Shown here in pieces: positions 1,458 through 51,034 of a DNA stretch of 51,566 bases. The notes beneath the pieces were generated by a model. It was not told the DNA's origin. It searched no databases and saw only the letters and a list, made by a program, of their open reading frames with translations. The stretch's first letter is position 1, and every line of letters starts with the position of its first letter. Source of the stretch: Bernardetiaceae bacterium (lineage in GTDB: Bacteria; Bacteroidota; Bacteroidia; Cytophagales; Thermoflexibacteraceae); NCBI GenBank assembly GCA_025057115.1, contig JANWWZ010000019.1:1-51566 (forward strand). The letters are read 5' to 3'. Both the position numbers and the translations under genes were made by a program.

Positions 1458-4157
1458 TTACACTCGAATGCCAACTATTGTAATGTCGTCGCGTTGTTCT
1501 GTTCCTTGCATATGTACGTCAAGACTTGCTTCTATCAGGCTTTTTTGCTGCTCAGCGGGTTTGGTGGCATGAAGTTCTAACATTTCGCGCAAAGTCTTAG
1601 AACCGAATTTTTGTTTATTGAGATTGTTCTGGTCTGCAAAGCCATCTGTAAACATGTATATCATATCGCCTTTTTCGAGAACTGCTTCATAGCGACTGTA
1701 GTTATAGTCTTTGCGTTGCAAACCACCTAAAGAAGCGCGGTCGCCTTTTAGAAAATATAGCTTATTTTCTTTAGCGACAAAAAAGTATAATGGTCGGCGC
1801 GCTCCAGCGTACACGATGCGCAATTTATTATTTTCCAACCTTTCCATTATTACAAGGCATACATCCATGCCATCGTCGTTTACTTTGTCTTGTTGCTTGA
1901 GAATGGCGCGCAGCTTGCGATCCATCATCTCTAGTACCATAACAGGGTCATATATCTTGCGCAAGCTGATAATTTCGTTAAACAATTGATGCGCAATCAA
2001 AGTCATAAACCCTCCCGGCACTCCGTGACCTGTACAATCTACAACAGCAAAAAATACCTTGCTGCCTTTTTCTGCCAGTATGGGCATGGAAGAATTTTCT
2101 CTTTCTTCGTTTTTTAGATAGTCTAGCCAGTAAAAATCGCCTGATACAATGTCTTTAGGTTTGTAAACGACAAAGTATTCGCCGAAAACTTCTTGCATTT
2201 GGGCGGCACTGGGCAGCATGGCTTCTTGAATAGTTTGAGCATAACGGATGCTATCAGTGATATTTTTGTTTTTGCGGCGAATAATTTCGTAGGCATTAGA
2301 GTTATCCAGCGCAATGGAAATGTAAGAAGCAAGCGTGCTAAGTACTTTTCGGTCTATTTCGTTATAAGCATTGGGTTTCATGCTCTGCACAGTAATAACA
2401 CCAATGGCTCTATCTTCGCGAACTAAAGGCAGATAAAGCAATGACTTGGGCATATCTTCTGTTACCTGAAAACTAGAAGCATTCAGGTATTTGGCGTAAT
2501 CTACCGCTAAATCGTTAATTACCACTTCTTTGCGATTTTTTAAGCACCAGCCCGAAAAACTAGGCTTTTCTATTGATTCCGAGTGATAGGATTGTTGCTT
2601 GCCATTGGCAATAAAATCCATGAACTCTATCTTTTTCTCTGCTTCGTTAAACACTCCTACGCCAAATACAGAGGCATCGAGCAAGGAAACTACATTGGTG
2701 TTGATAGTGGAAATGAGCTTCTTAAAGTCTAAGATAGCAGTAATTTTTTGTCCAATAGCACTGAGGGTTTTAATGTTGTTGTAGGCTTGGGTAATTTCAT
2801 CGCGTTGGCGCTCAATTTCCTTCTTTTGCTGATTGATTTTGCGCAGGGCTTGATAGCCGAAGATAATGGCAAGCAATAAGACAAAAGCTACAAAAGCAAC
2901 TACATAGAGAATCTGAATAGTGATTTGTCGCTGCGTTTCTACCGTAGTGATGCGTCCTTCTTTTTCAAGGATAGTAGCGCGCAGCCTTTGAACTAATTCT
3001 TGCGATTTTTGCTGGGCATTTTCATAGGCTACGTCGTTTTCTATCAGGGCTATTTCAAGGTTTTTGAGATACTTTTTCAGGTTTTCGCGCTGAGCAGGGG
3101 TAATGTCGCGTTCGTTGTTGAGTTTATCGGCTACCCGCTCCATTTCGCTGCGAATCTGGTTGCTCTTTTCGGCTAAAATCTGCTTGCGTAGCTCTAATTC
3201 GTTGATGATGCTGTAAAAATCATCGCGGTAGTTAATGATGGTAGAGTCTAAAGACTCACGCATAGGGATGCGAGGCTCGCGCAAACCTTCTGACTTGACT
3301 ATGATAAACACATAGTTGCCTTTCTCGTCAAAATCAAACTTAGCAATTTCATAGCCATCAATTATGAATTTGCTCACATCCACCTGAGAGGATTTGATAA
3401 CAAATTTGCCCTCCTTATCTGTTATGTAAGTTACTCCATCAACTTTTATCTTAAGGTTGGGAATGGGCAAGTAATTTTCATCGTAAATGGTTACATTCAC
3501 CACTGCCTCTTCTGGTTTTTCTGATTCTTTTCGGGGAGCGGTGTCTCCTCTGGGCAGGCGCAGCATTACAAAGCCAGCGTTTTGGAAAACCCGTATTTTG
3601 TCTGGAGGGATTCGCCTGCCTGAAACAGTGAAAGCAATGTCTTTAGTCAAGGGTACATTTTCCGGCAAGCGAGCTGAAAAGAAACCATGGGCATCAGTAG
3701 CTACTTTCTCCGAGTAGTTGCCTACTTTGACAAGTACATCTACTGCTTGCTGGGGCTCATTATTAGCTGAGATAACCTGTCCTTGAAAAAAGCCGGAAAT
3801 ATTTTCCATCAAAATTCTAAACTCTCTCGTATTGGCAAAATACTTGACATCTTTTACCCGCATGTCTCGGCGGAGTACTCGTACTTCTTTAGGTTGTTGT
3901 TCGATAGGTCGTGAAAGAGGGATGGAAAAATAGCCATTTTCATCTGTATCGGTGAAGGCACTCTTTTCAATAGATACTTTGGCGCCGGCAACGGGTTTGT
4001 TATCTACGTCAAACACCTTACCTGTAACGATGAAATCTTGTTGTGCATAACTTATCCCAGTAGTAAGCCATGCAACATAAATAAGTAGCCAAAGGCGGTA
4101 GCGCTGCATAAAAAATAGCCTCATAAGTGCGATTGTAAAGTTAAAGTTATGCGTCAT
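1458..4157 (-). CDS. PP2C/SpoIIE-type serine phosphatase with GAF domain and carboxypeptidase-regulatory-like repeats
   Basis: Membrane-bound signalling protein. A signal sequence (start possibly at 4124 or 4109 instead; both ATGs leave a better signal peptide) is followed by three beta-sandwich repeats of carboxypeptidase-regulatory type (about residues 42-110, 115-205, 225-290; FIVTGKVFDVDNKP opens the first). Then come a long coiled coil (~315-425), one membrane helix (~430-452), a GAF domain (~480-635) and a C-terminal SpoIIE/PP2C phosphatase (~655-899) with DSIRYAQTIQEAMLP, GDFYW and the metal-binding VVDCTGHGVPGGFM. The architecture suggests a periplasmic input domain controlling a cytoplasmic phosphatase; the target is unknown. 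It starts 19 bases after the nuoL-like gene and is probably co-transcribed with it. The final gene of the run converges on the helicase remnant. Confidence 0.88.
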   Translation of the reverse strand: MTHNFNFTIALMRLFFMQRYRLWLLIYVAWLTTGISYAQQDFIVTGKVFDVDNKPVAGAKVSIEKSAFTDTDENGYFSIPLSRPIEQQPKEVRVLRRDMRVKDVKYFANTREFRILMENISGFFQGQVISANNEPQQAVDVLVKVGNYSEKVATDAHGFFSARLPENVPLTKDIAFTVSGRRIPPDKIRVFQNAGFVMLRLPRGDTAPRKESEKPEEAVVNVTIYDENYLPIPNLKIKVDGVTYITDKEGKFVIKSSQVDVSKFIIDGYEIAKFDFDEKGNYVFIIVKSEGLREPRIPMRESLDSTIINYRDDFYSIINELELRKQILAEKSNQIRSEMERVADKLNNERDITPAQRENLKKYLKNLEIALIENDVAYENAQQKSQELVQRLRATILEKEGRITTVETQRQITIQILYVVAFVAFVLLLAIIFGYQALRKINQQKKEIERQRDEITQAYNNIKTLSAIGQKITAILDFKKLISTINTNVVSLLDASVFGVGVFNEAEKKIEFMDFIANGKQQSYHSESIEKPSFSGWCLKNRKEVVINDLAVDYAKYLNASSFQVTEDMPKSLLYLPLVREDRAIGVITVQSMKPNAYNEIDRKVLSTLASYISIALDNSNAYEIIRRKNKNITDSIRYAQTIQEAMLPSAAQMQEVFGEYFVVYKPKDIVSGDFYWLDYLKNEERENSSMPILAEKGSKVFFAVVDCTGHGVPGGFMTLIAHQLFNEIISLRKIYDPVMVLEMMDRKLRAILKQQDKVNDDGMDVCLVIMERLENNKLRIVYAGARRPLYFFVAKENKLYFLKGDRASLGGLQRKDYNYSRYEAVLEKGDMIYMFTDGFADQNNLNKQKFGSKTLREMLELHATKPAEQQKSLIEASLDVHMQGTEQRDDITIVGIRV

Positions 4158-4176: not shown

Positions 4177-6813
4177 TTAGTCGGTTATGTCGTCGTAAGT
4201 GAATTTTTCTCCCTTTTCAAGGAGGGAGTCAGCTTGGTAAAGCAATTGACGAGCTTGCGTCAAATAATACTGAAGGCTACCTATTGCTTGGTTGCTGAAT
4301 TGCTTTCGCAACAAAGCCGTTTGGATTTGCAGGCGAAGGTCGCGCCCGCGATAGAGCTTTCCCCGAAGGTGGCTTAGCTGCTTATACCATTGTCGGTAAA
4401 CCTTGTTGAAGGCGGCTAGGGCTGCCTTATTGCGTCCAAACTCAGCCTTTCGCAATTGACTATCAGCAATTTGTGCTGCCTGTTGATTCATTTGTTCAAA
4501 ATACTGATCGCGTATGTTAGTGATGTTGCCAAAAGCAACTTGCATTTGCCGATAGTTTTCTAAGACTTCTTCCCACTGCTGTTGCCAGAGTTTTACTTTC
4601 TCTTGTAGGGATATTTGTACAGTATCAGGCAGCTTGTCCTGAGGCGTGGTAGTTTCTGCTGGATTCGCTGGCTCTGGTGGTAATAGATCTGTAGCAAGGC
4701 TATCTGTAGTTTGTGCCAGCAAGTTTATCTTCTCTGCTAATGTAGCGCGACTTATTTGGAAATGCTCAATAGCTGCATGTAAATCTGGCAAAGCATTTTG
4801 AGCTTGATGGGCAGGCTGGCAGGAAGTAAGCAACCAAAGCACTAATAGGAGCAAAAACACAAGGGTGGTAATGTAATACCCTTGTACTTTTCCTTGCTGC
4901 AACGCTCTTGTTTTTTTGCCTAGCCAAGCTGTGGTAAGATAACAAAGTCGTACAAAGCCATCTACTAGTTTATGGTCCAGCCATGCCTGCAAATGGGCAA
5001 GCACTACAGTAGCTTTAGCCATTAATTCGATGGGGCGATCTAGCCATTGTTGTTCCCATTGTGCTGTTTTTCGGCTAATGGCGACAAAAATCGGCAACAA
5101 ATACCGCTCCAAGTAGTTTCCGATAGCAGTAAAACTAAAGTAGCGACTTCCTTCCGCCCAAATGCGAGGTTGAGGGGATAGAGCGCGTTTCTGATTCAAA
5201 AAAGCGGCAAAAGAAGTTTCGGTGTGTTTCCAGAGCTTGTAATAAAGCATATCCAAATACAAAAAATTGTATGCGGTGCGCCAGATAGGCAAGCGAGCCA
5301 GTTCTTCTTCCGTAGCGAGAATATTTGTACGACAGCAGTAAATTCTCCACGCTATTGCTGCGCCGCCTACAAGCAAGCCTACTGCAAGCACCGCTATCCA
5401 CCATGAATGTAATGGCGTAGGTAACTCAACAAAAGCCGTCAATGCACTGGAGCGCCACTGTAAAGGAGAAGTAGAAAAAGCTATAAAGAAAATAAATCCG
5501 CTTAAGGCTATTAGTGCAAAGGTTTGCCACCGATCGTGTGAAGTAGCAAAATAGTTCCTCGAATTGCGTTGGCGGGAATAGAAGGCTAAAAACCAAAGGC
5601 GAGCTGTGTAAAATGCCGTTCCTAGAGAAGTAAGCAATAGCACAACGAAACAAATTGCATTGGCTTGCATGACACTTGCCAAAATGCTCTCTTTGGAAAG
5701 AAAACCGGCTGTCAATGGAACTCCTGCCAGTCCAGCACTTGCCAAGGTAAACAATCCAAATAGAAGCCGCTTTTTGGACAGTCCACCCATTTGGCGAAGG
5801 TCTTGCGTACCCGCATAGTGAATTGCCATCCCAGCGCAAAGAAATAAAGTAGCCTTGTAGAAGCCGTGAGTGAGCAGATGTAAGAACGCTGCTTGAGGCT
5901 TATCTGCTCCTAGAGCTGCTAGCATAAGACCTAGTTGGGAGATGGTGGAGTATGCTAATGTTCGTTTTATATCGTATTGAGTGGAGGCGGCAAGGGCTCC
6001 TAAGAGAGCTGTCAGACTACCTATCCAAAGAGCCATTTGCAACACCTCAGGGGCAAGCCCAGCATGTACGCGGATTAGCAAGTAAATGCCCGACACAACC
6101 ATAGTAGCCGCGTGCATCAAAGCAGAAACAGGCGTAGGTCCTTGCATGGCATCTGGCAACCATACTGAAAAAGGCAACTGGGCTGATTTTCCCAAGGCAG
6201 CTAGCAAAAGCCCGAAACCTATCCACTGATACCAAGTTTCTTGTATGGGCTTGCATAGAGCTGATAGCTCAAATGAGTGAATAGCTGCCCAAGCACTTGC
6301 CAGAGCAAGAAAAAACCCTAGATCAGCTAAGCGGTTGATTATAAAGGCTTTGTTAGCTGCTTTTGCCGCCAGTACTCTTTTGCGCTCAAAGCCGATTAAC
6401 GCCCAACTACAAAAGCCTACAATTTCCCAAAAAAAGAACATAGAAAGTAAGTCAGCGCTAAGTGCCAAGCCATTCATTGCAAAGGTAAACAAGCCCAATA
6501 AAGCAAAATAATCGCCTTGGCGCTGGGCATGACGCATGTAATCCCATGAATATATTTGTACAGCAAGGGAAACTGTATTAACCATAAGCAACATAGTGCA
6601 TGCCACTGCATCGGCAGACCAGTAAAAGGCAACATCCTTTGACCAATGCCATACAAAGACTTCAGTAAAATGAGCATGGGCATACATGTAGCCTATCCCT
6701 GCCAAGTTTATCAGCGTTCCCCATGCTGGTAGGGTCTTACTCCATCGGAAAGGCAAGAGCCATGCGCCTAGTGCACCTACTAATGGCATCAAAGTCCACG
6801 ACAGGAGTTGCAT
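4177..6813 (-). CDS. nuoL: NuoL-like proton-translocating subunit with an extra C-terminal helical domain
   Basis: Residues 1-662 are a full NuoL/ND5-type antiporter-like subunit of respiratory complex I: FFFWEIVGF with the membrane Glu130, LGKSAQLPFSVWLPDAM with Lys209, LMHAATMV with His234, HGFYK with Lys320 and FLSKES with Lys374, then the long lateral-helix region (~530-640) and a final membrane helix (~645-662). NuoL proteins normally stop about there. This one continues for ~215 residues (about 4180-4827) from a lipobox-like LLTSC into a Pro/Thr linker and a charged, Gln-rich helical domain resembling nothing I recognise. No nuoK, nuoM or nuoN lies beside it; neighbours are a DUF5916 protein and the PP2C phosphatase. 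It could be a complex I subunit encoded apart from its operon, or a subunit of another ion pump. Confidence 0.85.
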   Translation of the reverse strand: MQLLSWTLMPLVGALGAWLLPFRWSKTLPAWGTLINLAGIGYMYAHAHFTEVFVWHWSKDVAFYWSADAVACTMLLMVNTVSLAVQIYSWDYMRHAQRQGDYFALLGLFTFAMNGLALSADLLSMFFFWEIVGFCSWALIGFERKRVLAAKAANKAFIINRLADLGFFLALASAWAAIHSFELSALCKPIQETWYQWIGFGLLLAALGKSAQLPFSVWLPDAMQGPTPVSALMHAATMVVSGIYLLIRVHAGLAPEVLQMALWIGSLTALLGALAASTQYDIKRTLAYSTISQLGLMLAALGADKPQAAFLHLLTHGFYKATLFLCAGMAIHYAGTQDLRQMGGLSKKRLLFGLFTLASAGLAGVPLTAGFLSKESILASVMQANAICFVVLLLTSLGTAFYTARLWFLAFYSRQRNSRNYFATSHDRWQTFALIALSGFIFFIAFSTSPLQWRSSALTAFVELPTPLHSWWIAVLAVGLLVGGAAIAWRIYCCRTNILATEEELARLPIWRTAYNFLYLDMLYYKLWKHTETSFAAFLNQKRALSPQPRIWAEGSRYFSFTAIGNYLERYLLPIFVAISRKTAQWEQQWLDRPIELMAKATVVLAHLQAWLDHKLVDGFVRLCYLTTAWLGKKTRALQQGKVQGYYITTLVFLLLLVLWLLTSCQPAHQAQNALPDLHAAIEHFQISRATLAEKINLLAQTTDSLATDLLPPEPANPAETTTPQDKLPDTVQISLQEKVKLWQQQWEEVLENYRQMQVAFGNITNIRDQYFEQMNQQAAQIADSQLRKAEFGRNKAALAAFNKVYRQWYKQLSHLRGKLYRGRDLRLQIQTALLRKQFSNQAIGSLQYYLTQARQLLYQADSLLEKGEKFTYDDITD

Positions 6814-10363: not shown

Positions 10364-10514
10364 ATGATAAATGTGTTTAATTGACGTGCTTCAAAGTTCT
10401 TGACGTCAAAATTAGCCCAAATTTATTAGCCTTGTGCAGAAAACACTTCTTTTGCAAGCACACGAAGAGATTGACCCATCCTCCTTAAATTTGTTAAAGT
10501 TGTCTTTAGGAGCC

Positions 10515-12776
10515 ATGAAGAGAGGTTGCTACTCTTGCCACAGGATGATTGTTGTTTATTATTGGCTCTTGAGCATAGGCAGTGCTGGATGGATTGGCAA
10601 CGTCGCCGGGCAGGAAATTCCAGTAGGAACCTGGCGCGTACATGCTTCTTTTAGCCAGATGAACTGCTTGGTAGCCGCAGGGAAACACCTTTACGCTGCT
10701 TCCACCAACGGACTGATGCGCTACGATCTTGTCAGCGGAACAGTAGAAACTTTAGACAAAACCAATGGACTTACAGGCAATCATTTTAGCGCACTGGGAT
10801 GGCACTCTCCTTCTCAAACTTTAATTATTGGCTATACAGATGGACAAATTGATTTACTTACCAGTGAAAAAATCATCAATATTCGCACCTTAGCTACCGC
10901 TACTTTGATTGGAGTGTTGACCACTTCTCGAGGCATTAACCACATTTTAGTGCACGGCAATGTGGCTTATTTATCGCTACCTTTTGGCATTGCGGTATTG
11001 GATTTGAGCACCTATCGCCTGCGCGAAACCTATTTGAACTTAGGCGAGGCAGGGCAAACTATTCCCATTTTTCAAACTGCTCTTTGGAAGGACAGTCTTG
11101 TTGCTGCTACTTTGCAAGGCATTCGCGCCACTTGGCTCTCTGGTCAAGTCAATCGGATGGACTTTCGCAGCTGGCGTACCGTACTTGCCTCTCCTGGTGT
11201 GCGAACTGTTGCCGCATTTGGCGACCTCTTGCTAGCGGGAGTAAATAACGCTGGAGTTTTCCGCTACGAAAGTGGACGATGGACACCGCTTCCCATTCCC
11301 CCAGCCCAATATCAGCACATTGATATAGATTCCCAAGTAACTACCGTAAGTCTTGCCAACGGAAAACTGGTAGAATGGACCTTGAGCGGACAAACCCAAA
11401 TCATTGCATTGCCAGAACTCAAAGCCCCTCGACAATCGATTCGAGTTAATAGTCTGCGCTATGTAGCTGACTTTGAAAATGGCTTGCTCGAAATACAAGG
11501 CACCCAAATACGACGGCTAACCCCTCCAGGACCATTCATTCCCCAAGTGCGGCAAATTGCTGTGGAAGCAGAGCAATTAATAGCATTTTACGGAGGATTT
11601 ACTGCCAACGGATTGCCACAAAACGATGACAATGGCTTCTCCACATTTTCTATCGGAAATTGGAAGCACTATAACCGAGTTGCACAGCCGAACTTTCCTC
11701 CCGCTACTGATTGGCTAGCAGCAGCGCGGGCAGGCAATCAACAACTTTGGCTAGCTTCCTTCACAGGAGGACTATGGCTGTGGCAAATGGCTAATAATCG
11801 ATTAGAGCGCCTCAACGATGCTCCAGCAGTGCGCATTACAGGACTGGCTGCAGATCCTACAGGAGCTCTATGGCTTACAGCTTTTACTTCTAGCAGTACT
11901 CCTTCTGTTTTTCGCCGTTTACCGCAGGGTATGTGGCGGGCTTATTCGTTGGGAGTAGCCAACGGCAACAATGCCCTTGCTCCAGTTATCGATAATGCTG
12001 GCAATGCTTGGGTACGACTCAATCCCGCTACGGGAGGGGGGCTAGTAATTGTTTCCCCTGAAGGAAGAGTGCGGCAGCTAAGTACCCAGCGCGGACAAGG
12101 AGCTCTCCCCTCTTTAAACGTGCTCTCTCTTGCCTGCGACCAACAAGGAACCATGTGGGTAGGAACTGATAACGGGCTGGTGGTGTTCTTTGATGCCGCC
12201 AGCGCAATAAACACCAATACTGATGGACAACGCATTGTATTTAACTTGCGAGAGCTGTTGCGCGGCGAAGTAATTTGCAGCATCGCCATTGATGGTGGCA
12301 ATCGCAAGTGGATAGGAACTTCCCGCGGTGTGTGGCTCTTTTCTGCTGATGGAGCCCAGCAAATCTACCATTTCACGGCTAGTAATAGTCCGCTTCTTTC
12401 CGACTTAGTGCAGCAGATTGCCATCCATCCACAAACTGGCGAGGTGTTTTTTGTAACAGATAAAGGGCTTGTTTCCTTTCGCGGCACGGCTACTGAAGCC
12501 AACCTTAGTTTCGACCATGTCCGGGTATTTCCCAACCCCGTCCCTCCTAAGTTCAATGGACTTATAAGTTTTGATGGACTAGTAGCAGGAGCAATTGTTA
12601 AAATTACTGACGCAGCAGGTCGGTTAGTGTATCAAACTCGTGCAGAAGGCGGCAGAGCTGTCTGGAACGGTCTAGACTATCAGGGAAGAGCTACTTGCGG
12701 TGGGGTGTATTTGGTTTACATGTCCGATGCGCAAGGAACAGAGCGATTGGTTACTAAGTTCGTGAAAGTGGAGTGA
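10515..12776 (+). CDS. porZ: PorZ, type IX secretion system surface beta-propeller protein
   Basis: PorZ is a surface component of the type IX system that helps attach anionic lipopolysaccharide to cargo. The mature N-terminus (EIPVGTWRVHASFSQ, LYAASTNGLMRYD) and repeated WVGTDNGL, KWIGTSRGVWLF and VFFVTDKGL blades fit its two beta-propellers. The last ~80 residues (VRVFPNPVPPKFNGLISF to LVTKFVKVE) form a type-A C-terminal sorting domain, which PorZ proteins themselves carry. Length (~750 residues) matches the family. I chose ATG 10515, just after an AGGAG; ATG 10545 is the alternative. An upstream GTG at 10434 would add a non-signal leader and is unlikely. It stands alone, divergent from the CoA-transferase. 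Confidence 0.85.
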   Translation: MKRGCYSCHRMIVVYYWLLSIGSAGWIGNVAGQEIPVGTWRVHASFSQMNCLVAAGKHLYAASTNGLMRYDLVSGTVETLDKTNGLTGNHFSALGWHSPSQTLIIGYTDGQIDLLTSEKIINIRTLATATLIGVLTTSRGINHILVHGNVAYLSLPFGIAVLDLSTYRLRETYLNLGEAGQTIPIFQTALWKDSLVAATLQGIRATWLSGQVNRMDFRSWRTVLASPGVRTVAAFGDLLLAGVNNAGVFRYESGRWTPLPIPPAQYQHIDIDSQVTTVSLANGKLVEWTLSGQTQIIALPELKAPRQSIRVNSLRYVADFENGLLEIQGTQIRRLTPPGPFIPQVRQIAVEAEQLIAFYGGFTANGLPQNDDNGFSTFSIGNWKHYNRVAQPNFPPATDWLAAARAGNQQLWLASFTGGLWLWQMANNRLERLNDAPAVRITGLAADPTGALWLTAFTSSSTPSVFRRLPQGMWRAYSLGVANGNNALAPVIDNAGNAWVRLNPATGGGLVIVSPEGRVRQLSTQRGQGALPSLNVLSLACDQQGTMWVGTDNGLVVFFDAASAINTNTDGQRIVFNLRELLRGEVICSIAIDGGNRKWIGTSRGVWLFSADGAQQIYHFTASNSPLLSDLVQQIAIHPQTGEVFFVTDKGLVSFRGTATEANLSFDHVRVFPNPVPPKFNGLISFDGLVAGAIVKITDAAGRLVYQTRAEGGRAVWNGLDYQGRATCGGVYLVYMSDAQGTERLVTKFVKVE

Positions 12777-39585: not shown

Positions 39586-40968
39586 TCACGGGGTTTGGCA
39601 CTCAATCACTCTACTTATGATCTCCACGAAATAAGCGCCTTTGTGTGGACCTGTCCAATTCATTTCGCGGGTTTCGGGTGCATAGTAATGATAATACTCA
39701 TCTGGAGTAATATAACCGACATAGCCACCATTAAAGCTAGTAATGAGCAGGTGGAGCTTTTTGTTAGCTGCTTTAGCCATCAACTCAGAAGCAAATTCGC
39801 CAGAGATATCGCACGGCAAGCCAAGAATAAGTAAATTGTTGAGACGCATTACAGATAGGTAAAGTGGTTGTTTACCAAAAACTAAGTTGAATACCTCAGG
39901 ACGCAAAACGGTGTGATCGGTAATGCGCAATTGTGGATCACCTAAATACAGAGGAATTTGCCAAGCACCTGATTTGTACAAGGGTTCTCCTGTTGATTTA
40001 ACAAGGTCGATAGCGTGAACAGCAAGACGCGTTCCTAGATCGCGAGCCAGTTCGTAACTATCTAGCCCCCAGTTATAATTAGGTACATGGCTGGCTACCA
40101 TGCCCGAGGCAAACAAAGCAAATTCCACCTTGCGGCTTTGAATAAGGGAATCAATTAAATAGCCAGGATAGTCGCGGCTGAGCTCTAAAAGGCGAGGATG
40201 TACGCAAATGGCATGGGCTTGGTAAGCCACCACCATTGCCCGAGCGCTATCTCTACGAATGAACTGCAAACAGCGCAAGTAACCATCAATAGGCGGTGGG
40301 CGTTTCTTAGACAAGCGATTGCTCATTAACCCAGGCAAATTGACCATGTCAAAAGCAACGTAGGACAAATGGCTAGCACTTCGCTGGGCTTGTTGCAAGG
40401 CGGCAATAACGGCTTGGCATATCATTCTTACTACTTCATGGCGATAACCTCCTGCCATTAGCTTGCCCGCCAGATTCCCTGCCCATCCTCCTATGCCACT
40501 GTGAGTATGAGTAGCTGTAAGCAGTGCATTTTCGAAAAGAATGCCAGTAAGCGGTAGTAAATGCTTTTGTAGCCATGTAGCTACCGAAGGCGGAAATATG
40601 AGCAAATCCGCACTAACAATAGCAAACCATTGCTTATTGCATTGCCATGCTATTGCGTATACATATAAAGAATCGTGAACGCGTTCAAATGCACCGCGGC
40701 TAATGCCATAGCCTGCCATTGCAATGGGCTCGGCAGGCACAATAGGCACTTTAGCCCAACCTGCTTTGGCTTGGCAAGTGTTTTGGCTTAAGGTCCATGC
40801 TTGTTGTTCTATGGCTTGTAATTGTCTTGAGTAAAAATCCTGTTCCTTGTAGTGCCGCTTGTCGATTGGCTTAAACAACAGCAGTCCTAATGCTACTAAT
40901 AACAGTCCCGTAAAAAATATGAATAAGCCAATAAATTTCACTTTTTTGCCAAGTTTGGAAATTTTCAT
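39586..40968 (-). CDS. membrane-anchored neutral/alkaline ceramidase-like hydrolase
   Basis: Neutral ceramidases cut the N-acyl bond of ceramides at a zinc site. After a short basic N-terminus and one membrane helix (~12-33) comes the catalytic-domain fold: MAGYGISRGAFERVHDSLY, a zinc-ligand block ATHTHSG, a second His in AHAICVHPRL, Glu in DISGEFASEL and Tyr in YVGYITPDEYY. The nucleophile region usually reads GD-S-PN; here it is SGMVASHVPN, so activity is uncertain. At 460 residues it lacks the C-terminal Ig-like domain of full ceramidases. Start 40968 is chosen for the anchor helix. The 193-base gap to the ABC gene holds only a weak hairpin (39518-39538). Confidence 0.78.
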   Translation of the reverse strand: MKISKLGKKVKFIGLFIFFTGLLLVALGLLLFKPIDKRHYKEQDFYSRQLQAIEQQAWTLSQNTCQAKAGWAKVPIVPAEPIAMAGYGISRGAFERVHDSLYVYAIAWQCNKQWFAIVSADLLIFPPSVATWLQKHLLPLTGILFENALLTATHTHSGIGGWAGNLAGKLMAGGYRHEVVRMICQAVIAALQQAQRSASHLSYVAFDMVNLPGLMSNRLSKKRPPPIDGYLRCLQFIRRDSARAMVVAYQAHAICVHPRLLELSRDYPGYLIDSLIQSRKVEFALFASGMVASHVPNYNWGLDSYELARDLGTRLAVHAIDLVKSTGEPLYKSGAWQIPLYLGDPQLRITDHTVLRPEVFNLVFGKQPLYLSVMRLNNLLILGLPCDISGEFASELMAKAANKKLHLLITSFNGGYVGYITPDEYYHYYAPETREMNWTGPHKGAYFVEIISRVIECQTP

Positions 40969-41217
40969 ATCACCACAGTGCAAAATTACTTGGCAAGGGA
41001 GTAATTTTTTCACCTAAAAACATGCAACTCAAATTGGAGATAATATAAATAAGAGCAGGGCAATACCCTGCTTCTATTAATTTGACGATGAAGCAAATTT
41101 GATATAGATATCACCACTTTCAGCTAATACGAATAGTTCTTAATACAGTTTCAACCTTCCGAATTTGCTTTTAGAAAAAACTTTTGCCAAACTTGAGAGC
41201 AATAATACACTGTCCAT

Positions 41218-44785: not shown

Positions 44786-47700
44786 CTATTCACTATTCCA
44801 TGCCACGCCTACTACGCCACGTACATTAATTCTAATTGGATTTTCCATTGTGTTGGCACAGTCATTGAAGATGCGCACTACTCCACTAAGTGTAGCATTG
44901 CCTATGCCTTGCATTTCGATAGTAATGCTCCGAGTTTGACCTCCCGGAATTACGATGTTGCCGCTACCAGCTCGTTGGAAACCAGTAGGCAGTTGCCAAT
45001 TGCTAAACAAGGTGATAGGTGCAGCCGAAGCGTTCTTTACTAGAACGTTGCGCATCACACTGCCGTTAGGTTCGATGAAGCCAAAGTCCACTACTTCATT
45101 AGTGCCTGTTAGCTTGACATCAGTTCCAACATCCAGTACGTTGTTGTTATTGACATCGTACCACACTTCTATGTCGTAAGCGCCCGGCTCGTTGCCGTTG
45201 ATAAGCGTAGTACCCTCGTAGATGGGAATCTGCTGTGTTACTTTGTCAGTAGAAATTAGACCAGCAAAAGACCAGTCGTTGCTGTTGTTCCATTGCGCAT
45301 TGTGGTTCAGAGTAAGCACTATGGTACGGCGATGGAACTGCGGTCGATTGGGCTGGGTGTTTGCTGGTGTATAAGCACTAGACCGAAGAAGAGTACTATC
45401 TATACCTATCGGGTAAATCGGATTGCCTGCCCACGAAATTTCTATGTAGTGCAAATCCCCACTAACGTGAACAGGTCCGTTAATAGTAGGAGCAGGATTT
45501 CCATCGTGTCCATCAATGGTTATACTATTTAGTGAAGCACCTGGATCGAGGGTATAATAGTAACGCATGCTGAGATTACTGCTGCCGCGGGCAGGCCAAG
45601 CACTGCGGTTATCTAAGGTCATGCGCAATTGTGTGGTAGTAGAAGTGCTGTTTACTACGCGAGCAGTTACCGAGAACTCCAATGGTTTTACTACAGGTTG
45701 CGGGAAGTTCGGAGTTAACGTGCTGGCGCCATTAGGATCAAGAGCGGCTAGTGCATATACCATAGGCGAAGTGAAGTATAACCGTGGCTCGTTGCTTTGC
45801 TGCGTCCAGTTTCCAGCACGGCGAGGGAACACCCACCTATCTTCTTGCGAACCACCGTCGAGTGTGTAATTACCCCAAAGATTATTATCGGGTCCTGGTA
45901 CGATGGCACCATACGGAATGTGTCTTGGAGGAAGGTTGGCTAAGACAGTGTTGTTAGCTGAAGTGGTAGAAGGTATAAAATGCGAGATACCAGCAAAGAA
46001 CCCTGTGGCAGTTAAATGCGACAGATAACGCACACTGTTCACACTTTCTAGCCCAGGTATTTCATTGGAGTTATAGCCACACATATAGCTTAACCGACGG
46101 TTATTATGCCCTAATACACCATCAATGTTGCGCTTGGCAACTTCTCTTAGCCTATCGCGCAAGTTTTCCCAAGTGGCAGGATAGCCAGTACCAGAAGGGG
46201 TAATAGGGCTAGAAAGAGGAGTCGCTTTATTCGGATCTGTACTAGTATTTATCTCTATATAGCGAGCAAATGCCAAGCAGGCTATGGCGGCTTCTATGAC
46301 AGGGCGCAGGCTGCCATTACCACGCAATCGGCTAGCAGTAAAGTTAAACAATCCATCAGAGCCATACTGAGTAGGATTCTTCAGTAAACGGTTATCAACA
46401 GGGTCAGTAGGAGTAGGACCATTGTGTGGTATGCTTGCTGCTGGAGTACTACTGCCACCCATAAAGAGATGCCTTAGCGCATTGCGATAGCTAACAATGC
46501 TAGTAACGCCAGATGGGAAAGGAGCATCAAGTCTAAATAGTAACAAAGTAGCTGGTATCTTGTAATCTACTGGCGAGCCTAATATATCTCTTCCATGATT
46601 AAACACCTCTCCTGCTGCGGTTGAGATAAATGCGCGTGCATATGTACCCGCTTCATTGAGCAGAGAATAACTACTAGGACCTGTAAGATAAGGTCCAGGC
46701 TTGGCCTGTTCTGCTAAATATATCCAAATGGCAGCCCATGCCATATTGTCATGTATCCATGATAATATGCGATGATCGTTGGGCTCATAAATAATTGCCG
46801 GACTAGAACTTGTCGGACCAGTGTATTCATAATAATCTGGCACAGGAGGATCATAGTTATTTCCTGTAGTCGATTCGGAAGTTTCAAAGCGATGACCTGT
46901 TCCATTAGTCACCACTTGTATGCCATTGCTAATGTTTCCATCACTGTCGTAAGGCTCTATGCGCACTAAATTGTTTGACATGTCTTTGGCTACTCCAAAC
47001 ACATTTGGATTGGTAATAATGGAAGTTGTGCCAGATGTTGGACAAATACTACATAGGGTAAAGGTAGCGAAATTGGGGTAACCTGCACCATAGTCGAGCA
47101 TTTTATTAGCACCGTGCGTATAACGGAAACAGAAACTGTACAGCCTACGAGCAGCAGTAAGCAGGTCATCAGCATAGGTATCCATGCCCGTGACCCCTAC
47201 TGCGCGGAAAGTTCTTGAGGCGGCTGCTAAGGCTGCTGCCATAGAAGCCACATGCGATACATAGGGCGCATCTTTATCTGCGTAGAAGAAACGCCTTACT
47301 GGGCGGCGAGAGGCAGGCAACTGATGAATCACCTCAGCGGCTGCCCACTCGTGAGTTTTGTAGTTAATATCAGCGGGTATAGAACCACTTGCATTATTAG
47401 GTATAAGATTGTTCGCATAGCGAGAGCCATCTGCTCGTCGGTCAGTTACAAATAGGTAGATTTTATACGTGCTTTCGTCATTAGGGTTGGTAAAAGTAAA
47501 ACACTTGTCTTTAAAGAAATCCGAAATCCATTTGAGGGTGCCAAGCATGCTATTGCGCAGCTCGGGATGGTTATTGTACACGTTTGGATAGTCCAGATAG
47601 CTCCATGCTAGCATAGAGGCGACATGCGCCATAGAAACCGTTGTCTTAGTAAAATCGGAAGCCCCTTCATACAGCCCTCCTACTAAGTTGACTGCGGGGA

Positions 47701-50700
47701 ATAGGTCGCCGCCATTGGCACTGGGTTCAGTATGGGAGTTTCCGCGCCACTCTACGCGGTTAGGCAGATGAGTGCCGTTAGGGAGAGTTACTCCTGCAGT
47801 TACGTTGCCTGAGCGCTGGGTTTCAAAGTAATAGAGAGAGCGTTGCAGAGCTTTTACGTAGTCGTGTACGGGGGGAGGTGGAGGAGTAGGAGCAGGAGGG
47901 ACTTGCCCGGGTGTAGTGGGAATATCCCCGCAAAGCAGCACTCCGTTTTCGTAGAAAGGAATAAATTTAGCATTGCTGGATTCTCTATTAGGAATCGCAA
48001 AAGCTGTACGAGCAGGTAAAAGTGCATATCCCCAGTCATTAGTGAGGTTAGCAGCGTTAGAGAAAGTAATTTTTAGCACGGCATGACGCACCTCGTGGCG
48101 TTTTGCCCATGCTATGGGAGATTTCACTAAATAAGGTCCACCCGGCCAAATTAAGTGTAGGTCTGGCGCGGAAGGGGTAATACCTGCCAAGAAATTTTGT
48201 GCTGTTTGCAACGGATTAATTGTAACACGAGGAGCTGGACGAGCTCCGCCCGGAGGAACATCAAAAAGATAGTTAAAAGCTCCTGAAGTTGGATTGCGGA
48301 AATAAATTTCCACATAACAAAGTTGATGACCTGTACCATTAGTAGCTACTACATTCACTTTTGCCATTGCTGCTGGCCCTGGAAGTAATGTGACCCCATC
48401 TGTAGATGGCTCAAAGGTAGCACCATCGAGGTCGCCATATTGATTTCTATCTGCGTCTGGAACCGCTGAGATACCCCAATAAGGATTCCGCAGGCGTAAT
48501 TCAGTTACAGTAACTCCTGGTTCTAAGGTGAAATAATAACGCACAGAAGCTGCTGAAATGCCTCGTGCTGGCCAGCGGCTGCGATTATTCACTGTGATGC
48601 GAACTTCGCATATTCTAGCGGCAGTAGGAGAAACTTCATTAGTACCACTGGCATCTCTGGGTACATCTTCTCGACGCGCATGTACAGGGAACTCCATGCA
48701 AGACCAGAAAGAATTAGAGGGTATGGGGTCAGGTATGTCGTCGCCTTGTCCATCGCCATCAGCATCGGGCAAAAACTCTCGAGGAAAATGAGCTGGTAAC
48801 GGCGTTCCTCCATACCGGGACACCATATTAGCCAACACTCCTGTAAAGCAAGGTTGATAAAACGTAGCTACTTCTGTGTAGCGAGCAGGGTCGGTAATAG
48901 AGTTGGGTCGTGTATCATCCCAACGAGGTCCTCCGATGAGTGAACCAATAAGCCGGTTTCTGTTTTGCGGGGTAAAACTGATTGTTGTGGGATTTCTATC
49001 ATCGTGACCGCCCCAAGAACCTATAGCATTAGCATGCAAACCAATATCTTCGTTTAGACATCCGGGAATGTTCATGCCCACGAAGAAATTGCGCTTTTGG
49101 GGGTTGTTGCCAAAAATGTAAGACACTTGACTCTCCGCCCAAGAGATGTACTGCCCTTTTTTGACTGCGTTGGGAACGTCTTTGGCAAAGCAAAGGGCAA
49201 TCCACATGCGGGGAGTCAATTGTTCAAATACACCCCAGGCTTCAAAGGGATCGCTCGAACTTGCTCCTTGTGGGAGAGTATCCCAAGGTCCACCCATTAC
49301 ATAGGTCAGTCCTCCGGGAGAAGTAGGACGGCTGATGATAAAATCAATGGTATTTTCTAATGCCTGCCGATAGCGCGGGTCGGAAGGAACTAACCGATTG
49401 AGCAATATTGCCACAAAAGTGTCGTAGTTCATGTAGCTGGGTCCGCGCAAGGGTAGCACAGAACGGGGAGTAACGGGAGTGCCACCTAAAGTAGTAGAAG
49501 GGGGGGTATTGGGCGCAAGATCAGTCAAACAGTTATCAAAAAATTGAATAGCCTTATTGAGATGGTGTGTTGCCAAAGGAGTATTTCCATTTTTCTCTAC
49601 TTCTGCCAAGTGCATCCACACATGTGCATAGGCTATTTCGTCAGAAATAATCCGCAATGCCTCTGCCACGCTACGGGCGGTATAATACATATAGTTTCCC
49701 CAGTCAGTTTGCACGCTGTTGGGTAGTTGATGATTGTCTGCTGGTGGAGGCGGTGAAAATGAAGTTTGCTGAATAATATATGCGGGGTCAGCCGAGCTTC
49801 CATTAGAACCGCAACTGGCGTTGCAAACTTGCATTGCCATGTTAGGGAATTGGGTAAAGTCTATTTTTTCTGGAAACTTATTAGGTCCGTAGGCAGGAAA
49901 GCTTGAGGCATTTACAAAAGCATCAAAATAAGCTTGATTATGCCTCCAGTTGGCATTGATAATAGTGCCATCTGCTCTCTTAAAAGCCCCTAAACCGCGA
50001 TATTGAGCCATGAAGTTGTGCAATCGTAAGGCTCTATCGTAAAGCAAATCAGCATAGGAAATATTGCCTACTCGCCGAAAAAGGATAGAGGCGGTAGCCA
50101 TGGCTGCGGCATATTTGGCAACGTGCGGCGTATTAGGCACGTCTTTGTCTATGTAGTAGTGAGGACGCTGAGGCACCCGATGCACAATAGTACTAGAAGA
50201 AGCGGCGATAGCATGCTCTGCCCTATAATCTGAAACAACGCAAACAATCCGGTACGTAGAAGGATCATTAATATCAGTGTATAAAAAACTGCGCAACATG
50301 TAGTCCGTTCCCCACTTGATGTTTTCCAGCAAGTAAGGTAGCTGCCCTGTAGAAACGAACTGGTCGTACTGTTCTACTCCTGCCCATGCCAACATGCAAG
50401 TAGCAAAGCCGATAGAAGAAGCCCATTTAGGATGGTCACCTGCGTCTCGGAAGCCACCCTGCAATGCACCTGCTTTGTTAGCATCGGTGATATGCTGTCC
50501 CAAACCATTCCACATGCCACCGGGAGGCAACTGCAAATCATACCCATCATAAGTGTGCTGATTAGCGAGCCACCGCACGCGGTTCTGTCCCGGTGCATAC
50601 CCATAAGGAGGCATTACACCTGAGCGCTGAGCATCATAAAAGTAGATAGACTTCTGCAACGCTTCAGCATAATTAATCTGAGATTGTGCCCATATCTTGC

Positions 50701-50785
50701 TTGTAACAAGCAAGCATAAAAAAACGCTAACACATGTCTGCAAAAACTTTGCAGTCCATGGAATTGATGTAAAATTATTCTTCAT
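44786..50785 (-). CDS. giant secreted double-module glycoside hydrolase family 9 protein (GH9-CBM3-GH9-CBM3)
   Basis: A 1,999-residue secreted enzyme, probably an endo-beta-glucanase. Signal peptide (start ATG 50785, cleavage near IWAQ). Module 1 GH9 (~40-665): GGFRDAGDHPKW (~110) holds the two catalytic-side Asp residues, WAESQVSYIFGNNPQ precedes the C-terminal part, and YTEVATFYQ holds acid Glu638. A DADGDGQGDD calcium-type loop and a CBM3-like domain (~695-955; NNRSRWPARGISAASVRYYF, then FYENGVLLCGD) follow, then a Pro-rich linker. Module 2 GH9 (~975-1665) has GGLYEGASDFTK in place of DAGD and QQSNEPRLYF for the acid Glu. A second CBM3-like domain (~1675-1850) and an Ig-like/choice-of-anchor domain (~1855-1999) end the protein. 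I see no standard type IX C-terminal signal. It is monocistronic with its own terminator. Confidence 0.88.
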   Translation of the reverse strand: MKNNFTSIPWTAKFLQTCVSVFLCLLVTSKIWAQSQINYAEALQKSIYFYDAQRSGVMPPYGYAPGQNRVRWLANQHTYDGYDLQLPPGGMWNGLGQHITDANKAGALQGGFRDAGDHPKWASSIGFATCMLAWAGVEQYDQFVSTGQLPYLLENIKWGTDYMLRSFLYTDINDPSTYRIVCVVSDYRAEHAIAASSSTIVHRVPQRPHYYIDKDVPNTPHVAKYAAAMATASILFRRVGNISYADLLYDRALRLHNFMAQYRGLGAFKRADGTIINANWRHNQAYFDAFVNASSFPAYGPNKFPEKIDFTQFPNMAMQVCNASCGSNGSSADPAYIIQQTSFSPPPPADNHQLPNSVQTDWGNYMYYTARSVAEALRIISDEIAYAHVWMHLAEVEKNGNTPLATHHLNKAIQFFDNCLTDLAPNTPPSTTLGGTPVTPRSVLPLRGPSYMNYDTFVAILLNRLVPSDPRYRQALENTIDFIISRPTSPGGLTYVMGGPWDTLPQGASSSDPFEAWGVFEQLTPRMWIALCFAKDVPNAVKKGQYISWAESQVSYIFGNNPQKRNFFVGMNIPGCLNEDIGLHANAIGSWGGHDDRNPTTISFTPQNRNRLIGSLIGGPRWDDTRPNSITDPARYTEVATFYQPCFTGVLANMVSRYGGTPLPAHFPREFLPDADGDGQGDDIPDPIPSNSFWSCMEFPVHARREDVPRDASGTNEVSPTAARICEVRITVNNRSRWPARGISAASVRYYFTLEPGVTVTELRLRNPYWGISAVPDADRNQYGDLDGATFEPSTDGVTLLPGPAAMAKVNVVATNGTGHQLCYVEIYFRNPTSGAFNYLFDVPPGGARPAPRVTINPLQTAQNFLAGITPSAPDLHLIWPGGPYLVKSPIAWAKRHEVRHAVLKITFSNAANLTNDWGYALLPARTAFAIPNRESSNAKFIPFYENGVLLCGDIPTTPGQVPPAPTPPPPPVHDYVKALQRSLYYFETQRSGNVTAGVTLPNGTHLPNRVEWRGNSHTEPSANGGDLFPAVNLVGGLYEGASDFTKTTVSMAHVASMLAWSYLDYPNVYNNHPELRNSMLGTLKWISDFFKDKCFTFTNPNDESTYKIYLFVTDRRADGSRYANNLIPNNASGSIPADINYKTHEWAAAEVIHQLPASRRPVRRFFYADKDAPYVSHVASMAAALAAASRTFRAVGVTGMDTYADDLLTAARRLYSFCFRYTHGANKMLDYGAGYPNFATFTLCSICPTSGTTSIITNPNVFGVAKDMSNNLVRIEPYDSDGNISNGIQVVTNGTGHRFETSESTTGNNYDPPVPDYYEYTGPTSSSPAIIYEPNDHRILSWIHDNMAWAAIWIYLAEQAKPGPYLTGPSSYSLLNEAGTYARAFISTAAGEVFNHGRDILGSPVDYKIPATLLLFRLDAPFPSGVTSIVSYRNALRHLFMGGSSTPAASIPHNGPTPTDPVDNRLLKNPTQYGSDGLFNFTASRLRGNGSLRPVIEAAIACLAFARYIEINTSTDPNKATPLSSPITPSGTGYPATWENLRDRLREVAKRNIDGVLGHNNRRLSYMCGYNSNEIPGLESVNSVRYLSHLTATGFFAGISHFIPSTTSANNTVLANLPPRHIPYGAIVPGPDNNLWGNYTLDGGSQEDRWVFPRRAGNWTQQSNEPRLYFTSPMVYALAALDPNGASTLTPNFPQPVVKPLEFSVTARVVNSTSTTTQLRMTLDNRSAWPARGSSNLSMRYYYTLDPGASLNSITIDGHDGNPAPTINGPVHVSGDLHYIEISWAGNPIYPIGIDSTLLRSSAYTPANTQPNRPQFHRRTIVLTLNHNAQWNNSNDWSFAGLISTDKVTQQIPIYEGTTLINGNEPGAYDIEVWYDVNNNNVLDVGTDVKLTGTNEVVDFGFIEPNGSVMRNVLVKNASAAPITLFSNWQLPTGFQRAGSGNIVIPGGQTRSITIEMQGIGNATLSGVVRIFNDCANTMENPIRINVRGVVGVAWNSE

Positions 50786-51034
50786 ATTTACTGTAAATAA
50801 AAACTTTCCCTTATTCGCAGAGTGCATTTGCCCACATTTGTTAACCTTTCATTAGGATACATTATGACCTATTTGATAATCAAAGTTCTCTACAAATTTT
50901 TTTAGTGATACCCTGTTATATAAGCCTCGCCCACAGACTCTTTATTATAAATTTTTGATCACCTATGAGGTGCATCGGCAAAGTGCAGCAGTAGCACTCG
51001 GCATACCTTGATTAATAAGAGTTTTATTTATATA
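50786..51034. other. divergent intergenic region between the GH9 and delta-60-repeat genes
   Basis: 249 A/T-rich bases between two divergent starts, so it must hold both promoters. I could not find a complete TTTG-N19-TAnnTTTG match on either strand. A small stem AGTGC/GCACT (50976-50992) near the plus-strand gene has no obvious role. Confidence 0.5.

Follow-up and report, generated by a model that had tools for sequence, protein, structure and literature searches.

Some polyproteins are known to be processed at an internal signal peptide, and a bacterial case close to the present one is FbcH of Bradyrhizobium japonicum, a cytochrome b/c1 polyprotein. The lipobox follows the pattern [LVI][ASTVI][GAS]C, and the enzymes Lgt and LspA are usually portrayed as working on signal peptides at the N-terminus. 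The literature that we searched, mostly at the level of titles and including PMC10924467, yielded nothing on an internal lipobox. No signal peptidase II polyprotein was among the literature matches listed, and no fusion of NuoL with a lipoprotein was among the best 10 of 23 matches listed. Here we describe a gene in the window, a stretch of 51,566 nucleotides from a Bernardetiaceae bacterium, that probably encodes a polyprotein in which the complex I subunit NuoL is joined to a lipoprotein resembling DUF2959 and which is split at an internal lipobox; we infer the lipidation and the cleavage from the features described below.

The gene is a single open frame of 878 residues, in which a NuoL subunit is followed by a tail of about 214 residues. 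This agrees with the original prediction, which had NuoL running in frame into a helical domain of about 215 residues. The tail extends from about C665 to D878 (nucleotides 4821-4180) and is followed by the stop codon (4179-4177). The parts of the gene and its neighbor are collected in Table 1.

Table 1. Parts of the fused gene and the adjoining gene, with coordinates in the window
Feature	Position	Strand	Basis or remark
Whole fused gene, nuoL and lipoprotein domain	4177..6813	-	878 codons and stop; fusion common to 4/4 genomes of the genus
NuoL core, residues 1-640	4894..6813	-	Pfam PF00361 (E 1.4e-68) and PF00662; NCBIfam NDH_I_L above cut-off
TM16 (last NuoL membrane helix) and flank, residues 641-664; proposed second role as type II signal peptide	4822..4893	-	Counterpart of the final helices in unfused NuoL; lines up with the signal peptides of free-standing relatives
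Lipobox L662-T663-S664-C665; proposed cut S664/C665	4819..4830	-	LLTSC identical in 4/4 fused genes; Cys invariant in 8/8
Variable stretch after the Cys, residues 666-734: predicted helix 678-710 and Pro/Thr-rich linker	4612..4818	-	Structure model and divergence
Helical domain, residues 730-867, with three of the four long helices of the model	4213..4626	-	AlphaFold2 model, conserved core, relatives
CarboxypepD_reg, GAF and SpoIIE-phosphatase gene	1458..4157	-	19 bases past the nuoL stop; same neighbor in 4/4 genomes of the genus

The first part of the protein shares its antiporter-like core with E. coli NuoL (3rko) and cyanobacterial NdhF (6hum). Pfam placed Proton_antipo_N at residues 62-103 and Proton_antipo_M at residues 119-396. 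In NCBIfam, the NDH_I_L subfamily was narrowly passed (411.1 versus 407.5 bits), and the stricter equivalog PRK06590 was not reached (427.6 versus 556 bits). Residues 597-652 of the 656 in NdhF aligned with residues 605-660 of the fused protein, which include TM16 and the region before it, with an i-Evalue of 6.2 that is not significant alone.

With the tail alone, nothing in Pfam passed its cut-off (the best was Pentapeptide_4, E 0.0024, 18.4 versus 38 bits), and NCBIfam gave no hit at E <= 1. A profile of the four tails known from the genus (A1) was searched against 291 genomes of the order and found 10 genomes at E <= 0.01. These comprised the four fused genes, four free-standing genes belonging to family f14 (E 6.5e-13 to 9.4e-5) and two weak matches, in G039 and G177, which we discarded as unconvincing or weak. 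All four free-standing proteins start with a lipoprotein signal peptide, ending in LVIGC, LVISC, LVFAC and LLTAC, respectively. Three of them possess a C-terminal domain of the NADase_transloc or F5_F8 type (L034:8705-9910, L035:8195-9397 and L036:3215-4378). When the free-standing f14 sequences were added to the profile (A3), matches appeared in 23 of 395 genomes of the class, and besides the bacterium's own genome the full-length strong ones were found only in G373 and G291 (E 4.8e-13 and 6.6e-12), both lipoproteins. The other 20 genomes were set aside for short or weak matches, many of them to the signal peptide; among the discarded matches, the open reading frames were inspected for G177 and for 5 of these 20 (L043, L044, L045, L047 and L048). 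A homolog search with the tail alone, which had been proposed as a check, thus recovered four free-standing lipoprotein relatives in the order, and the enlarged profile recovered two in the class. Together with the alignment of their lipobox cysteine to that of the fused proteins, these relatives support the earlier proposal that a former lipoprotein gene was joined to nuoL.

The relationship could be followed further by profile comparison. After the signal peptides of the free-standing proteins had been cut off, hhalign gave a probability of 97 and an E of 5.7e-11 for the tail against the f14 lipoproteins, compared to 11 and 0.0026 for a reversed-sequence control. The lipoprotein of G291 (L041), which was found with A3, passed the Pfam cut-off of DUF2959 (PF11172) with 28.1 versus 26.8 bits. 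The f14 lipoproteins matched a 9-member DUF2959 set with probability 95 and E 2.5e-8 (reversed control, 18), and the tail compared directly with this set gave probability 33 and E 4.6e-4 (reversed control, 0.25). PF11172 had no match in any of the four tails at the Pfam gathering score. In 395 genomes of the phylum it matched 16 at E <= 0.001, with 11 above the cut-off, and the bacterium's own genome was not among them. This search also found a free-standing DUF2959 lipoprotein above the cut-off in G012 of the sister genus g7 (L121); we rejected it as a direct relative because the tail profile had no match in that genome. Judged from these profiles, the tail is a distant and indirect relative of DUF2959, linked through intermediates, and by Pfam's rule falls outside the family. 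The genomic context of the free-standing relatives gave no hint of function.

A model of the tail made by AlphaFold2 from three sequences contained four long helices at residues 678-710, 730-780, 785-835 and 841-867 (pLDDT 77.7, pTM 0.72). Foldseek compared this model with the PDB and returned generic helical bundles with a best E of 6.2e-3 and no usable relative, and the A3 profile found weak, mostly coiled-coil matches among PDB sequences (best E 0.0056). The model of the full-length fused protein was discarded (pLDDT 36, pTM 0.29) and is no guide to the structure of the junction.

The junction reads VLWLLTSCQP, and after TM16 (about residues 641-664) the frame continues as LLTSCQPAHQ. In all four fused genes LTSC stands where a lipobox does, at the outer tip of a hydrophobic helix (the pattern scan matched the window gene and the copies L030 and L031), and LLTSC is identical in the four; three of these genomes are close, with NuoL cores 87-95% identical, so the conserved junction represents about two lineages rather than four. 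Between the window gene and its counterpart L009, in which synonymous sites are saturated, identity was 64% in TM16, 26% in the linker after the cysteine and 52% in the helical domain. When the fused and free-standing proteins were aligned, the lipobox cysteine was invariant in all eight and TM16 occupied the place of the signal peptide. The likeness to a lipoprotein does not extend to an N-terminal signal peptide, since the cysteine is residue 665 and the signal would be the last helix of the preceding polytopic protein.

The position of the lipobox was compared with the ends of 31 unfused NuoL proteins, eight from the family and another 23 that were best matches in the order. Their C-termini lay 18-25 residues (median 19) past a conserved anchor motif before TM16, and in 4/4 fused proteins the residue before the cysteine is position 20 past this anchor. 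In none of the 31 did the lipobox pattern occur within the final 32 residues or a cysteine within the final eight. As a control, we scanned 509 internal hydrophobic segments in 67 of the 207 open reading frames from 15 chosen, non-random stretches of DNA, and found six internal pattern matches. Three were copies of the fused gene; the other three, judged by eye, lay inside hydrophobic stretches and had no soluble domain after them.

Positively charged residues (KK or KR; GKKTRALQQGK) are found just before TM16, as expected for a helix with its N-terminus inside. From known NuoL structures, we take TM16 to be oriented from the cytoplasm to the periplasm, as a signal peptide is. With this topology, the earlier claim that the domain probably lies outside the inner membrane holds. 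The bacterium's own genome contains one LspA gene and one Lgt gene. The five residues after the cysteine are QPAHQ in the window gene and EPVNR, EPVNR and EPVNG in its relatives. An arginine within five residues past the cysteine, which is present in two of the three relatives and absent from the window gene, was counted against cleavage. In Capnocytophaga canimorsus, the surface-export signal after the cysteine is minimally K-(D/E)2 or Q-A-(D/E)2, according to PMC5080379. None of the four fused genes has the surface-export signal described for Capnocytophaga and relatives, so that a protein facing the periplasm, whether from the outer or the inner membrane, seems likelier.

On balance, we favor a scheme in which the last helix of the polytopic subunit serves as a lipoprotein signal peptide and signal peptidase II splits the protein into NuoL and a lipoprotein in a fixed ratio of 1:1. 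The NuoL part would insert normally, and TM16, passing from the cytoplasm to the periplasm in the orientation suggested by NuoL structures, would expose L-T-S-C at its outer end. Lgt would then add a diacylglyceryl group to Cys665, and LspA (signal peptidase II) would cut between Ser664 and Cys665. The expected products are a NuoL of ordinary length and a lipid-anchored, periplasm-facing lipoprotein with a helical bundle, in equal number.

It is possible, if somewhat doubtful, that the domain stays covalently on NuoL. TM16 would then tether a periplasmic domain to the distal part of complex I, where it could bind another envelope protein, and Cys665 would be either free or lipidated and uncut. 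The single continuous frame in four genomes is consistent with this arrangement, and so is the strong constraint on the domain, which would be on the periplasmic side. TM16 presumably packs against the complex, and this could hide the helix from Lgt and LspA. However, a lasting attachment leaves unexplained why L-T-S-C is conserved beside a fast-changing linker, why in the alignment the cysteine takes the lipobox position of the free-standing lipoproteins and why the proposed cut site coincides with the normal end of NuoL. The conservation of the lipobox could come from the short junction, or from lipidation without a cut. Because the conserved lipobox is located at the outer end of TM16, just where unfused NuoL proteins end, we consider cleavage and release likelier than lasting attachment. 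The part of the original prediction that made the domain a part of NuoL is therefore doubtful.

An internal start codon would offer another route to a separate lipoprotein. In that case the tail would also, or mainly, be made as its own protein and the fusion would be a mere overlap of genes, which we regard as unlikely. Three relatives do have methionines 34 and 16 residues before the cysteine, the first of which gives a long but passable signal peptide, and the window gene has GTG and TTG codons within TM16. However, the window gene has no methionine in the 66 residues before the cysteine, and a leucine (CTA) stands where the relatives have Met -34, so this start is not conserved. Starts within TM16 would leave the front of the signal peptide without a positive residue.

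In the 13 genomes of the family, the bacterium's own included, the tail profile matched in four, which are exactly those of its genus, and always within a NuoL frame; there was no match in the nine others. The fused frames in the four genomes were 884-921 codons from stop to stop. NuoL was matched in 10 of the 13 genomes (E <= 1e-40), and the six outside the genus had no tail. In the order, NuoL had a match in 289 of 390 genomes (E <= 1e-50), and among the matches listed, frames longer than 750 codons occurred only in the four genus genomes, the next being 747 and 740. The possibility that the tail is present in every close homolog of NuoL, raised earlier as grounds for refutation, is thus true within the genus and fails outside it, both in the six family genomes and among the order matches listed. 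In the three closer genomes (3 pairs), dN/dS was 0.14-0.18 for the whole tail, 0.20-0.37 for the linker and 0.09-0.10 for the helical domain, the last being lower than the 0.14-0.155 of the NuoL core; pairs with the window gene were excluded because their synonymous sites are saturated. Because the fusion is in frame in 4/4 genomes of the genus and dN/dS is low, we regard the fusion as a feature that selection maintains throughout the sampled genus, under purifying selection. A neutral fusion, itself without function and formed when a lost stop codon let nuoL run into a neighboring lipoprotein gene, would fit the confinement to one genus in these searches. It is very improbable, since the helical domain is under stronger constraint than the NuoL core and the frame has been maintained across saturated synonymous divergence. 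Although the sequence comes from a draft assembly in 86 contigs (3.0 Mb), an assembly or sequencing artefact, including the sequencing error that had been named as a possible refutation, is refuted by the same in-frame junction in four genus assemblies.

The complex I genes that were sought in this genome are scattered. NuoL lies in the window (the whole of contig C10), and two further Proton_antipo_M genes, taken by eye as NuoM (C11) and NuoN (C44), and a NuoD-family gene (C22) lie on three other contigs. NuoM is near atpD and NuoN adjoins rpsT (named by eye); no other nuo gene was recognised by eye in 14 kb around the NuoD-family gene. In G009, G010 and G041 the unfused NuoL gene also looked solitary, and in G044 it did not. 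The protein type encoded next to the fused gene, with CarboxypepD_reg, GAF and SpoIIE-phosphatase domains, had 14-22 matches in each genus genome and 22-73 in the nine other family genomes. At nine sister-genus loci (L097-L105) that hold its best homologs, the longest frames in the preceding 1.5 kb were inspected by eye, and we found neither nuoL nor such a lipoprotein gene; the stretch for L104, near a contig end, was possibly shorter than 1.5 kb. Elsewhere in the window are a protein of 2013 residues with four Glyco_hydro_9 stretches and CBM_3, apparently a double cellulase (44786-50827, reverse strand), a PorZ-like protein of the type IX secretion system (10434-12776, forward strand) and a protein with a partial match to the N-terminus of neutral/alkaline ceramidase (39586-41013, reverse strand).

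Cleavage at the internal lipobox, if true, would mean that what the lipoprotein pathway recognizes is a helix with its outer end rather than an N-terminus, and would make the gene a bacterial counterpart of the viral polyproteins that are split at internal signals. It would also link the biogenesis of complex I to an envelope lipoprotein and give a handle on the DUF2959-like family. Compared with known systems, the fused protein differs from the 31 unfused NuoL proteins in having both a tail and a lipobox. With the DUF2959 lipoproteins it shares a helical lipoprotein domain, linked through intermediates; however, its tail is fused behind a polytopic protein and has no PF11172 match. The likeness to FbcH is that two respiratory-chain proteins are encoded in one frame and separated at an internal signal peptide. 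In contrast, FbcH gives rise to two subunits of one complex through an ordinary signal, whereas the fused NuoL would carry a lipoprotein-type signal and yield a lipoprotein as its second product.
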